This document shows, in pieces, positions 2,519-13,355 of a stretch of DNA of 33,873 nucleotides. The notes beneath the pieces were generated by a model. That model saw only the letters and a program-made list of their open reading frames with translations, made no database searches and was not told the DNA's origin. The stretch spans positions 1 to 33,873 of the forward strand of contig JAISTE010000015.1 of the NCBI GenBank assembly GCA_031272825.1, written 5' to 3'. Numbering within the stretch: position 1 is the first letter of the stretch; each line of letters opens with the position of its first letter. Source of the DNA: Propionibacteriaceae bacterium (GTDB lineage Bacteria; Actinomycetota; Actinomycetes; Propionibacteriales; Propionibacteriaceae). Both the position numbers and the translations under genes were made by a program.

Positions 2519-4486
2519 TCACCCGAGCTGGTTGCGCCGCAACAACGAGTCCACCTGCCCGCCGACGTGCCTGACGTGCCCCTCGTCCACAACCGTGAAC
2601 TGGCTGGCATACGCCTGGTGCGCCTGGAGCAGACGGCCAAAGTCACCACCGGCGTCGTAGCTAGAACCCACGCCGATTTGCAGGAACGGAATCCCCAGCT
2701 GGGCAGCGGCCTTGGCGGCGGCGTGGTGGCAGCGGACGTGGTCGGGGTGGCCGTAGCCGCCCTCTTCGTTGTACGAAACCAGGACGTCTGCCCGCCAGTT
2801 GACCGCAGCGGCTGCGACGTCTCCCACCACCTCGTCGAGATTGGCCTTCGACAGGGCCCCGGCGGGGGAATCGTCGGCCGGGCCCGCGACTCCGTCTGCG
2901 ACCCAGGCCATGCCCGAATCCGAGTATTCGCGCTCGGCCCGGCAATCGGCGCGGTTCGGCTGCGCCCCCAAGAACCCGGCGTCTTTCGCCCCGAGCGCCG
3001 CCAACGCGTTCCGGCGCTCGGCCAGCCGCAGCTCGACCAGCCCGGCCTCGTCCAACCTCTCAACGACGTCCGGGGTCGCCTCCCCCATCTCGCCGCGGGT
3101 CGCGGTGAGCACCAGGCATTCCTTCCCCTCGCGGGCAAGCGCCAAGATCGCCGCACCGGTGGAGAGAGTTTCGTCGTCGGGGTGGGCGTGGACGAACAAG
3201 AAGCGGCGGGCAGCGGAAACGTCCGCCGCATGCCGACGGTGAGCCGGCAGCGGGACTTGATCGTCGAGTTCGCCGCCGAGCAAGGCCTGGTACAGGTGTT
3301 CCATGGAGCGAACCATGCCAGACCAGGTAAAACGCCGCGCGTGAACCCGCGAGACCGTACCCATGCGCTCCAACAGCTTCGGGCGGGAAAGCAGCTTGGT
3401 GATGGCGACCGCCCAGTCCTCGGGCTGGCGCGAATCCATCAGCTGCCCCGTCTCCCCATGTACGACGGCCTCACGCAAGCCCCCCGCAGAAGATGCGATC
3501 ACCGGGGTACCGCAGGCGGCCGATTCCAGGGCCACCAGCCCGAACGTCTCGGAGTGGGAGGTAACCAGCGACAGCTCGGCATTTCTAAACAGCCAGGCTA
3601 TGTCCTCTCGCGAGAGCGCCCCGACAAAGTGCACCATGTCCTGCAAGCCAAGCTCGGCCACCAATTGGTTCAGCATCTGCTGATACTCGGCGAAGTCGGG
3701 CGAGTCCGCCCCGGCTATCACCAGGTGCGGGCGGATCGGCTCGGCGACCTCGGCCAGCGCCCGGATCGCGAGATCGGGCGCCTTGAGCGGCTGGAGCCTG
3801 GCGGCCATGGCGATGTACTTTGCCGAAGGAATGCCCTTGAATCGCCCGGGTATTGGATCGGCAGGGCATTCGCGCCTGGGACGGAAGAGGTTCAGATCCA
3901 CCCCGGGGTGCACGATGGCTACCCGATCGGGATTGGCGCCGCAGCGCTCGATGACCGTGCGCGCCTCGGCTGCCGAGATGGCGATCACGAGGTCGGATTC
4001 TTGGGCGAGCATCGCCTCGCCGGGCACGCGCTGGGGTGATTCGGCCGGCTCGCCCTCGGCCAGCACCGAGCCGGGCTTGGCGGCGACGGAGTGGAAGGAT
4101 TGCACGTGCGGGACGCCCCTGGCCCTGGCCAGCGGCAGGGCCGCAACCCCCGACATCCAGTGCTGGGAGTGGAAGATGTCGTAGTCGGCGTCGATTCCGG
4201 CCAGCGCCTCGGTGAACTGTGGGATGTACTGGTCGATTTCAGACTTCGCAAGCGGTGCCGTCGGGCCGGCGGTGAGATGAAGCAAGCGCAGGTTTTCGGC
4301 CAACTCCAGGACGTCGGGCTGGGAAGGGTCGGATCGGCGGGTGATGAGATCGACGCGATGGCCGAGCCTGGCCAATTCTTCGGCGGCGTGCAGCTCGACG
4401 ACGTTCATCCCCCCGGCATCACCCGAACCCGGGGCGTCGGCGGGGGATGTGTGCATGGAAACCATCGCGATACGCAGCTGGGGCAT
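2519..4486 (-). CDS. Fusion protein: GT4 glycosyltransferase (MshA-like) + PIG-L deacetylase (MshB/Mca-like)
   Basis: N-terminus MPQLRIAMVSMHTSPADAPGSGDAGGMNVVELHAAEELARLGH...VHPGVDLNLFRP is MshA-like; C-terminus RRFLFVHAHPDDETLSTGAAI...EEGGYGHPDHVRCHHA has PIG-L HPDDE and GHPDH motifs. Single uninterrupted 655-aa frame. Confidence 0.88.
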   Translation of the reverse strand: MPQLRIAMVSMHTSPADAPGSGDAGGMNVVELHAAEELARLGHRVDLITRRSDPSQPDVLELAENLRLLHLTAGPTAPLAKSEIDQYIPQFTEALAGIDADYDIFHSQHWMSGVAALPLARARGVPHVQSFHSVAAKPGSVLAEGEPAESPQRVPGEAMLAQESDLVIAISAAEARTVIERCGANPDRVAIVHPGVDLNLFRPRRECPADPIPGRFKGIPSAKYIAMAARLQPLKAPDLAIRALAEVAEPIRPHLVIAGADSPDFAEYQQMLNQLVAELGLQDMVHFVGALSREDIAWLFRNAELSLVTSHSETFGLVALESAACGTPVIASSAGGLREAVVHGETGQLMDSRQPEDWAVAITKLLSRPKLLERMGTVSRVHARRFTWSGMVRSMEHLYQALLGGELDDQVPLPAHRRHAADVSAARRFLFVHAHPDDETLSTGAAILALAREGKECLVLTATRGEMGEATPDVVERLDEAGLVELRLAERRNALAALGAKDAGFLGAQPNRADCRAEREYSDSGMAWVADGVAGPADDSPAGALSKANLDEVVGDVAAAAVNWRADVLVSYNEEGGYGHPDHVRCHHAAAKAAAQLGIPFLQIGVGSSYDAGGDFGRLLQAHQAYASQFTVVDEGHVRHVGGQVDSLLRRNQLG

Positions 4487-4495
4487 GCCGGAAGT

Positions 4496-5230
4496 CTACT
4501 GAAACAGAGCCATCTCGTTGCGTCTGGCGAAGCGAGGCGGCGTCTCCAGCCTGACGTCGATGAAGCGCCTTACCGTGCGCACCAGGGCGCGGGATGCGGC
4601 GGGAAGCCGGGCCATGTCTTGTTCCGTTCGCGCGGCCAGCCCGTGCCCCTGACCCTCCATGGCTTCGAGTTTTGCCAGCTTCTGGCCTTCGGTCTCCAGG
4701 GCTGACTCGATCTCCTTGGGCGTTCCCATCGGATCTTCTGTGCCTTGAACCAGCAGCGAGTCTCCGGCAACCCGGGCCAGTTCATGTACGGAAATCCGCC
4801 ACGGATAGCCGACGGGATGCAGCGGGAAACCGAGCAGCACCAGCCCCCGCTGGGGTTGGGCGTAGCAGCGGCAGGCGACGCGCGCACCCGCAGAACGCCC
4901 GCCGGCGACCATCGGCAGCCCGGGGAAGAGCACCGGCATCTCCGCCAGCGCGGCTTTCCAAGCGGTATCGAGGGTTTGGGCCGGGCCCGCGGCGTCGCGG
5001 CCCAAGACCCGCCAGGGCTGCTCGAAGCGCACGACCGCGATCCCTACGGGCGGCAACCCGCTTGCCAGCGCCTCCAGGTCGGGAGCGTCGACGCCTGCGC
5101 GGGCCCCGTGACCGAGCAGCAGCACCGCGCGCGCATCGAACGCCGGGTCAATGTACAGACGCCCGAGACCAGCCGGAGTGGCCACCTCCATAACGGCCTG
5201 GTCTGTAATCGCGTAGCGCATGACCTCCAT
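4496..5230 (-). CDS. Small alpha/beta hydrolase (KANL3/Tex30-like family)
   Basis: LLLGHGARAGVDAPDLEALASGL...PMVAGGRSAGARVACRCYA...GLVLLGFPLHPVG...LLVQGTEDPMG: GHG oxyanion loop, GRSAGA nucleophile elbow. Confidence 0.75.
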   Translation of the reverse strand: MEVMRYAITDQAVMEVATPAGLGRLYIDPAFDARAVLLLGHGARAGVDAPDLEALASGLPPVGIAVVRFEQPWRVLGRDAAGPAQTLDTAWKAALAEMPVLFPGLPMVAGGRSAGARVACRCYAQPQRGLVLLGFPLHPVGYPWRISVHELARVAGDSLLVQGTEDPMGTPKEIESALETEGQKLAKLEAMEGQGHGLAARTEQDMARLPAASRALVRTVRRFIDVRLETPPRFARRNEMALFQ

Positions 5231-10409: not shown

Positions 10410-10790
10410 ATGCGCTCCTCAATGTCACTTGTCGCGGTGACCAGGTCTCAGGGTGCGCCTGGTTCGCGAGCAATAAAGCCTTTCGTGAGGGCCGCCAGCC
10501 TCCGCGGTCGTTTCCGTCGCGGTGAAGCTCCCCATGCGCCTGGGTGGCAACCCTGATGATCTTGTGATCGGCCTCTATTCTTCCACAAGATAACAATCTG
10601 GTCACAAAACCAAGCGTTTGCGCTTGTGAAAGCAGTGTGGCGACGGACGAACGCGTGTTTGCCGTCTGCCGTCAAAATCCCAACTTCCCTACCCCGTAAC
10701 ACTTGCCATCTGCCCTGCACGCGGGCAATATATTTTCACGAACCGGTTCAGGTTCGTCCCCCGGCTTCGGCCACAAATGCAGGAGAGACG

Positions 10791-13355
10791 ATGAAGTTCC
10801 CGAAACGCGCTGCCCTTGCCAGAACTGCGGCACTGGCCCTGGTGATGCTGGTGATGACGACGACATGTGCGCTGGCCGTCCCGCCGAGTGAAATACACTC
10901 CGATTCCACCGAGCTGCTGCACATCTCTAACCCCGATCTCCAGGGGGTCGCCCAGCGCTGGCTGGAGCGGGTGAACGGGGGAAGCGACGTCGATTGGAAG
11001 GATCCCGATTTCGATTCCTACCGCGACGCCGCCGACAAGCAGGGCAAGGATCTTTGGAAGGCGATGGACAAGTCTTCTAACCCGGCGCGCCTGTGGCCGA
11101 AGGAGCAGTCGGATTTCGCGGTGAAAGACCGAATCTCGCGCGATATGACCCACCAATTCCAGAACCTGCGGGCGCTCGCGTTGGCCTACCGGCTGCCCGG
11201 CGGCGAGCTTTCCGGGGAGACGGACGTGCGCGATGCCGTAATAAGGGGAATGGATTTCGTGCGCCGAGCCTACGAGTACGACGGGAAAACCACCCACAAG
11301 GGCCGGGAGACCAACGGCAACGATAACTGGTACGACTACATGATTTCGTCCCCGGCGGCCATCGAGGACACGCTGTTGCTGCTCGCCAACGAGCTGGAGC
11401 CCGAATATCTACGTTCTTGGGCCGACGCCATCATGGGTTACCTGAGCCTGACCGACGTGCGCGACGTCACCTACACCGAGGACGATCAAACCGGCTCGAA
11501 CCTGACCGACGTCCAGCTCACCCGGATCGGCGCGGCCTTGCTCGGCGACAGGCCGGACTGGATGGTGAAACCGGCCCAGGTCGTCGGCAAAACGATGGAA
11601 ACCGTTCCCAGGGGAGATGGGCTGTATGCCGACGGTTCGATGCTGTTCCATGACGGTCTGCCGTACACCGCTGGCTACGGCGAATCCTTGCTCGACGGCA
11701 TCGCCCGGCTGACCTCGCTGCTTTCCGGTACCCCGTGGCAGCTGCGCGCAGAAGACCGCCAGGCCGCCGTTTCCTGGATCAAGGAGGGTATCTTGCCGCT
11801 GCTGCAGTTCGGGCGTCTGCCAGCTGCGGTTTCGGGTCGGGCCATTTCCCGCCAGATCAAGGGAGGATACGAGGCTCAGGCGGCAGCCGACATGATGGCG
11901 CACATCTTGGAATTCGCCGGTTCGGAGGACATCTCGGCGGCCGACCGCGAGGTGCTGCTTTCCGCCGTGCGTGCCAATACCAAGACCGGCTTCGACTACA
12001 TCGGCAGGGCCCGCGACCTCAAGGCGATTTCGGATTACAGGGCACTGTTCGCCGCAGGCGGTACCGAGCAGGCATGGCGGGGAACCAAGTTCTACGCCGG
12101 GATGGAACGCGCGATCCAGGCCACGGACCGGGCCACGGCCGTCGCGGCGTTTCATTCGTGGCGGGTGCTGGCCTACGAATACCTGAACACCGAAAACCGC
12201 AAGGGCTGGAACACCTCGGACGCGGCCCTGTACGTCTATACCGACGACCCCAACCAGTTCGGCGAGGCCTGGTGGCCGACGGCCGATCCCACCCATATCC
12301 CCGGAACCACCGCCGACCGGGCCGAACCCGAGCCGGGCGCGGGGGCGAACGTCTCGGGAGGAAACTACTTCTCCGGCGGGGTCTCCGATGGCGAGGCGAC
12401 GGTGGCGGGCATGGCCGTCAACAAATCCGAGCAGGGCACGAGCGACGTCAAGGCCAACAAGTCCTACTTCTTCGCGCCCGACGGAACCATCGTCGCGCTG
12501 GGATCGGGGATTTCGGGGCACTCGCGCGCCGACGGAATCGACACAACCGTAGCCCAGCGCATCACCGACGGCACGCACGCGCTCACCGTCAACGGTGAGG
12601 CCGTGGAGGGCGAGCGCAGGTTCTCGCTGCCCGCGGGTTCCTGGATTCACCTGGAGGGGACGACTCCAGGCTCGGGCATGGGCTACTTCTTCCCGCTTGG
12701 CGGGGAGGTGACCGTCGCCAAGACGCAGAAACAGGGCTCCTACAAGGACATAAACCCTGGGGCCGTCGATCCTGAGCTGCCCGATTCGTACTCCTCGTGG
12801 TACTACGACGTGACGCTGAACCACGGCAAAACCCCAAAGAACGAGCGCTACGCGTACGTGGTGCTGCCCGGTTTCACGCTGGCCCAAACGCAGGAGTACG
12901 CGGCGAACAGCGATCTGCAGGTGCTGCGCAACGATAACGAGGCCAGCGCCGCGCGTTACGCCGGGCGGGTCTACGCGAACGTGTGGTCGAACCAAGGGGC
13001 GGCGGTCGCCGGGATTACCACCTCCTCGGAGGCGACCTTCATGCTGGTAGAGGGTTCTGCGCCGAAGCTGCACCTGGCATCGCCGCTGACCGACCACGCC
13101 CAGACGCTGATCGTCCAGGGATTTGCGCCGAACACGCAGATCACCGCGGGCGGAAGTACCTCGGCGGCCCCGGCAGATGGCCGCTACGTCTTGCAGCACG
13201 ACGGCGTGTGGTGGTCCTACCTGCCGGTGAAAGACTGGCCAGCGTTGGTGGTGTGGGTGGCCGCGGTGGTGGGTATCGCGATCGCAACGCTGGTGTTCCG
13301 GGCGCTGACCTCGAAGAAGTCAAAGAAGGCTAGGGCGGCCAAGCGTGCGGCGTAA
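10791..13355 (+). CDS. Secreted, C-terminally membrane-anchored polysaccharide lyase family 8 (hyaluronate lyase-like)
   Basis: Signal peptide MKFPKRAALARTAALALVMLVMTTTCALA; NDNWYDYMISSPAAIEDTLLLL, SMLFHDGLPYTAGYGESLL, NTENRKGWNTSDAALYVY and WWPTADPTHIPGTTAD, which are PL8-typical; C-terminal TM plus KKSKKARAAKRAA. ATG 10791 follows AGGAGAG. Confidence 0.9.
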   Translation: MKFPKRAALARTAALALVMLVMTTTCALAVPPSEIHSDSTELLHISNPDLQGVAQRWLERVNGGSDVDWKDPDFDSYRDAADKQGKDLWKAMDKSSNPARLWPKEQSDFAVKDRISRDMTHQFQNLRALALAYRLPGGELSGETDVRDAVIRGMDFVRRAYEYDGKTTHKGRETNGNDNWYDYMISSPAAIEDTLLLLANELEPEYLRSWADAIMGYLSLTDVRDVTYTEDDQTGSNLTDVQLTRIGAALLGDRPDWMVKPAQVVGKTMETVPRGDGLYADGSMLFHDGLPYTAGYGESLLDGIARLTSLLSGTPWQLRAEDRQAAVSWIKEGILPLLQFGRLPAAVSGRAISRQIKGGYEAQAAADMMAHILEFAGSEDISAADREVLLSAVRANTKTGFDYIGRARDLKAISDYRALFAAGGTEQAWRGTKFYAGMERAIQATDRATAVAAFHSWRVLAYEYLNTENRKGWNTSDAALYVYTDDPNQFGEAWWPTADPTHIPGTTADRAEPEPGAGANVSGGNYFSGGVSDGEATVAGMAVNKSEQGTSDVKANKSYFFAPDGTIVALGSGISGHSRADGIDTTVAQRITDGTHALTVNGEAVEGERRFSLPAGSWIHLEGTTPGSGMGYFFPLGGEVTVAKTQKQGSYKDINPGAVDPELPDSYSSWYYDVTLNHGKTPKNERYAYVVLPGFTLAQTQEYAANSDLQVLRNDNEASAARYAGRVYANVWSNQGAAVAGITTSSEATFMLVEGSAPKLHLASPLTDHAQTLIVQGFAPNTQITAGGSTSAAPADGRYVLQHDGVWWSYLPVKDWPALVVWVAAVVGIAIATLVFRALTSKKSKKARAAKRAA

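Follow-up and report, generated by a model that had tools for sequence, protein, structure and literature searches.

A single open reading frame (ORF) of 655 aa in the window (the whole stretch of 33,873 nucleotides analysed here, from a Propionibacteriaceae bacterium) joins an MshA-like glycosyltransferase to a short PIG-L deacetylase and, judging from its sequence, probably encodes a bifunctional enzyme that acts early in mycothiol synthesis, at the first and third steps of the pathway. In the literature searched, MshA and MshB are two distinct enzymes, and the phosphatase that acts between them is described as unidentified (PMC7278568, PMC4360819). The initial annotation had already read this 655-aa ORF as an MshA-like transferase joined to an MshB/Mca-like deacetylase, with which the best matches in both Pfam and NCBIfam agree, and the motifs that it quoted are all located in the ORF (GDAGGMN at residues 22-28, HAHPDDE at 433-439 and GGYGHPDH at 576-583). 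The position that it gave (2519-4486) was also right, but the strand had to be corrected, as the ORF lies on the minus strand (Table 1); a plus-strand reading of the same interval is ruled out by a stop in that frame.

Table 1. Coordinates of the fusion ORF, its parts and neighbouring genes (positions in the window unless a locus of another genome is named).
Feature	Position	Strand	Details
mshA–mshB' fusion ORF, 655 aa	2519..4486	(-)	ATG start at 4486, TGA stop 2521-2519; ORF list; relatives have 23 other single-frame fusions
MshA-like GT4 glycosyltransferase domain, residues 1-403	3278..4486	(-)	TIGR03449, 332 bits; CgMshA 3c48, E 2.1e-73
Interdomain linker, 24 aa, residues 404-427	3206..3277	(-)	GGELDDQVPLPAHRRHAADVSAAR; no in-frame ATG/GTG codon
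Short PIG-L deacetylase domain, residues 428-655	2522..3205	(-)	PF02585; AlphaFold pLDDT 92.8; best PDB match MshB 4ewl, TM 0.80
Alpha/beta hydrolase (PF20408), next gene upstream of the fusion	4496..5230	(-)	9-nt gap; ORF list, Pfam
Histidine phosphatase by g154 fusion	L186:4912-5514	(-)	PF00300
Histidine phosphatase by g154 fusion	L187:5367-5975	(-)	PF00300
Histidine phosphatase by g154 fusion	L206:5563-6165	(+)	PF00300
Histidine phosphatase by g154 fusion	L209:5636-6235	(+)	PF00300

Both halves of the protein exceed the Pfam gathering cut-offs. In the N-terminal half, PF13439 matches residues 25-199 (2.6e-26) and PF00534 residues 222-377 (4.4e-37), and in the C-terminal half PF02585 matches residues 430-593 (4.6e-24, 85.8 bits against a cut-off of 28.2). 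High third-position GC is maintained over the entire ORF. The alpha/beta hydrolase gene that precedes it is probably co-transcribed with the fusion.

MshA (TIGR03449; the Corynebacterium glutamicum enzyme, CgMshA, PDB 3c48/3c4q/3c4v) is by far the best family match of the first half, with a full-length alignment and most of the checked site residues kept, and 3c48 is its closest solved relative. However, the 332 bits obtained are below the equivalog cut-off (462.5), a deacetylase is attached and, in the tree, the transferase falls in a sister clade of canonical MshA. Among the positions of the UDP-GlcNAc and inositol-phosphate site, which we take to be those of the CgMshA annotation, H9, D20, N25, K78, R154, R231, K236, E316 and E324 are kept, and H109 and S133 of the fusion stand at the positions of Y110 and T134, residues that in CgMshA presumably bind inositol phosphate together with K78 and R154. 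These two changes (Y110H and T134S) are fixed in the clade (18 of 18 rows and, later, 88 of 88 rows with letters), whereas all 25 canonical rows carry Y and T, and they are the only exceptions to the invariance of the checked residues in the 24 fused proteins, one row of which is without the N-terminal part.

The altered pocket might be taken to mean that the pair leads not to mycothiol but to another GlcN-cyclitol or a variant thiol. We consider this very improbable, as K78 and R154 are kept and the downstream enzymes in the same genome all exceed their equivalog cut-offs: MshC with 548.9 bits (cut-off 485.1), MshD with 233.9 (163.1) and Mca with 349.3 (277.15). Additionally, the related structure 6kih likewise has Ser at the position of T134, so this change need not abolish phosphate binding. 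The absence of mshC and mshD had been named in the initial annotation as a reason to abandon its reading; both are present, and their scores speak for ordinary mycothiol.

The second half belongs to the PIG-L fold, being above the Pfam gathering cut-off and giving a model that matches MshB structures. Its best named family in NCBIfam is MshB (TIGR03445; Mycobacterium tuberculosis Rv1170, PDB 1q74/1q7t/4ewl), which is also its closest solved relative, although the score (110.6 bits, over model positions 1-156 of 284) is below the equivalog cut-off of 224.35. The AlphaFold model of the domain taken alone matches 4ewl best, at about 27% identity, and metal and catalytic residues are common to both: the equivalents of H13, D15, D16, R68, D95, Y142, H144 and H147 are kept in all 24 fused proteins and in 81 of 81 PIG-L rows. 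By equivalence with MshB, we take H435, D438 and H583 to be the predicted zinc ligands and D437 the general base; further equivalent residues are D523, Y578 and H580. Unlike MshB, this deacetylase is short, being without most of the C-terminal region, and it forms the C-terminal half of a larger protein. With Mca (TIGR03446) it has in common the fold and the HAHPDDE signature, but it scores 79.7 bits against a cut-off of 277.15, and the genome has a separate Mca elsewhere. In the tree, PIG-Ls fused to MshA or encoded beside it cluster together, separately from both MshB and Mca. Consequently, the domain identities first proposed hold as MshA-like and MshB/Mca-like, but the transferase belongs to a sister clade and the deacetylase lies outside both named clades; this position, together with the scores of both domains below the MshA and MshB equivalog cut-offs, counts against a bifunctional mycothiol enzyme. 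A model of the whole fusion, built with aligned sequences for just the MshA half, has a poor PIG-L half and low pLDDT around residues 407-422, and it carries no information on domain orientation.

The rest of the gene complement helps in weighing the role of the deacetylase. The fusion is the sole MshA-like protein found in its genome, and no canonical MshB above the cut-off was found in this genome, in 24 others of the same genus or in six fused genomes of other genera; likewise, no PIG-L exceeds the MshB cut-off in four genomes from other families with an MshA of the same clade. By contrast, the 16 other genomes of the order have a canonical MshB above it. With no other MshA and no canonical MshB, the genome is left with the fusion as its single MshA candidate and, in the PIG-L domain, with its likeliest candidate for MshB. 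A protein search of the genome contigs gave only two PIG-L loci, with 35-36% identity. All 15 fused genomes checked gave a match to MshC; 14 of these matches exceed the cut-off, and the remaining one is a fragment.

It could be argued that only the MshA half serves mycothiol, the MshB step being carried out by Mca or, in genus g154, by a full-length MshB homologue, and that the PIG-L half deacetylates some other GlcNAc conjugate. In fact, Mca is present and might carry out that step, the PIG-L half is in neither the MshB nor the Mca clade, and in g154 each of the eight fused genomes checked retains a diverged full-length homologue of MshB (227-249 bits, cut-off 224.35), placed next to the MshB clade on a long branch, so that in this genus MshB function may not be confined to the fused PIG-L. 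Nevertheless, we find this explanation rather unlikely, since the PIG-L gene is linked to mshA, in an operon or by fusion, across the family and also in a single genome outside it, the canonical MshB is missing as described, and the MshB-type residues R68, D95, Y142, H144 and H147 are all kept. At loci L174-L177 of g154, the full-length homologue was seen, besides the fusion, with a HAHPDDESSQ signature.

The fusion in this genome is neither chance nor artefact. Stops are absent from all three frames at the junction. Of the possible start codons ATG, GTG and TTG, only TTG occurs in frame nearby, twice, so the second domain has no ATG or GTG start there. None of 192 simulated single-base indels (codons 396-428) restores the short-overlap junction of the relatives; the first gene would run to codon 475 or 658 instead. 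The own assembly consists of 171 contigs and the majority of same-genus relatives have split genes, both of which would suit an assembly or sequencing error that joined two genes. Such an error is extremely improbable, as no single-base change recovers the relatives' arrangement, the second gene would be left without an ATG/GTG start codon, and 23 other single-frame fusions occur in other genera, several of them in single-contig genomes. The assembly join considered in the initial annotation thus fails as an explanation, on both the simulation and the recurrence. Lone fusions in draft genomes may include errors, but errors cannot explain every case in the fused clade and the single-contig genomes.

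At first, the fusion was viewed as unique to this genome, and no other was found in the first search of relatives or in 395 genomes of the class. A search of 198 genomes of the same family overturned that view and yielded the further GT4+PIG-L fusions for which the initial annotation had suggested looking. Among the 89 loci read, 24 have fused ORFs: the present one, 17 in g154, three in g161 and one each in g158, g160 and g168. The linkers vary from 6 to 68 aa and are unrelated in sequence between groups, and in one g154 clade all 15 species have the fusion. In nearly all same-genus relatives, mshA is a separate gene next to that of the PIG-L protein; at the 17 loci where both genes were found they lie in different frames, 13 overlapping by 1-14 nt and three gapped by 1-7 nt (L011 is ambiguous). 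A genome of another family with the same MshA clade (G266) also has the pair, with a 4-nt overlap. The MshA gene tree requires at least eight switches between split and fused states, with 23 of its 90 inner branches unresolved. The fusion probably arose from an operon in which ancestral mshA and PIG-L genes overlapped, as it did several times in the family. MshA-clade genes with no adjoining PIG-L were seen at L148 and L150-L153 (genus g152) and at L017 in genome G012, where a PIG-L was found on a different contig. At L103 (G396; same MshA clade), the PIG-L open frame runs for 521 aa from the motif and has a membrane-like C-terminal part.

From the homology to MshA and MshB, we infer the activities, substrates and order of steps of the bifunctional enzyme. 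The N-terminal GT4 domain would transfer GlcNAc from UDP-GlcNAc to inositol phosphate, a separate phosphatase would then take off the phosphate, and the C-terminal zinc PIG-L domain would deacetylate the product to GlcN-Ins, which would pass to MshC and MshD. That two non-consecutive steps have been fused repeatedly suggests selection for their coupling, and we infer as the likely benefit a fixed 1:1 co-production together with proximity, not direct hand-over. The substrate channelling suggested in the initial annotation found no support: under the textbook order it is not expected, because the phosphatase step intervenes, and the linkers share neither length nor sequence. Channelling could be rescued if the deacetylase took GlcNAc-Ins-P straight from the MshA site, with dephosphorylation following deacetylation. 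Such an order would account for the recurrent joining of steps that are not consecutive in the textbook, and would fit a deacetylase of a distinct clade beside an altered inositol-phosphate pocket. However, it appears unlikely given that the linkers are modelled with low confidence and so variable, and that separate proteins suffice in the majority of relatives.

The phosphatase between the MshA and MshB steps was still described as unidentified in a 2020 review (PMC7278568). In 12 of the 15 species of the fused g154 clade, a histidine phosphatase gene (PF00300, about 200 aa) lies directly downstream of the fusion on the same strand (four are listed in Table 1); in two of the other three species it is 8-10 kb off and in one on another contig. 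As all of these species inherit one arrangement, the linkage counts as one event, and the protein is a lead, a candidate for MshA2. A homologue with 41% identity is encoded on another contig of the own genome (G000:C5:350-910). The orthologues looked at in other genera have no linkage to mshA, some fused genomes (G448) have no match, and some g161 genomes have a match and no MshA match. CobC was rejected as an identity for this phosphatase (86 bits, below 162.9); in two other genera the phosphatase gene adjoins malate dehydrogenase, not cobalamin genes, according to ORF starts. It is a doubtful proposition that the whole front end has been rewired in this family, with the pocket-altered MshA and the short deacetylase as one unit, deacetylation preceding dephosphorylation and the g154 histidine phosphatase acting as MshA2. 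Another lead is found in G448, where a calcineurin-like phosphoesterase gene (PF00149, L188:7884-8738, minus strand) is directly upstream of the fusion. Around the same-genus loci, the neighbour survey found oxidoreductase, DUF3048 and other genes, and no phosphatase among the families sampled.

The same pair of activities, a GT4 transferase followed by a PIG-L deacetylase, is known from bacillithiol synthesis (BshA/BshB), where the acceptor is malate, there is no phosphatase step and the enzymes are separate proteins, not fused as here. The Bsh enzymes are homologous to MshA and MshB (PMC4360819). Two successive enzymes of thiol synthesis in one chain are exemplified by the bifunctional glutathione synthase GshF (GshAB) (PMC7278568), but its enzymes and thiol are unrelated to those discussed here, and it has no intervening step. 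The open-access literature searched, which is part of the whole, yielded no description of MshA fused to a deacetylase. What is new is the arrangement, with its divergent subtypes; the enzymes and the pathway were already known. The fusion offers a ready-made bifunctional protein for testing the order of steps, and the phosphatases adjoining fusions are a small set to test as MshA2.

Elsewhere in the window, a polysaccharide lyase family 8 protein of 909 aa is encoded near the fusion (10626-13355, plus strand). On the strand of the fusion, positions 581-1654 encode an LppM-domain protein with a long Q/P/G-rich C-terminal tail, and between this gene and the fusion lies one that reads like ribosomal protein L21.
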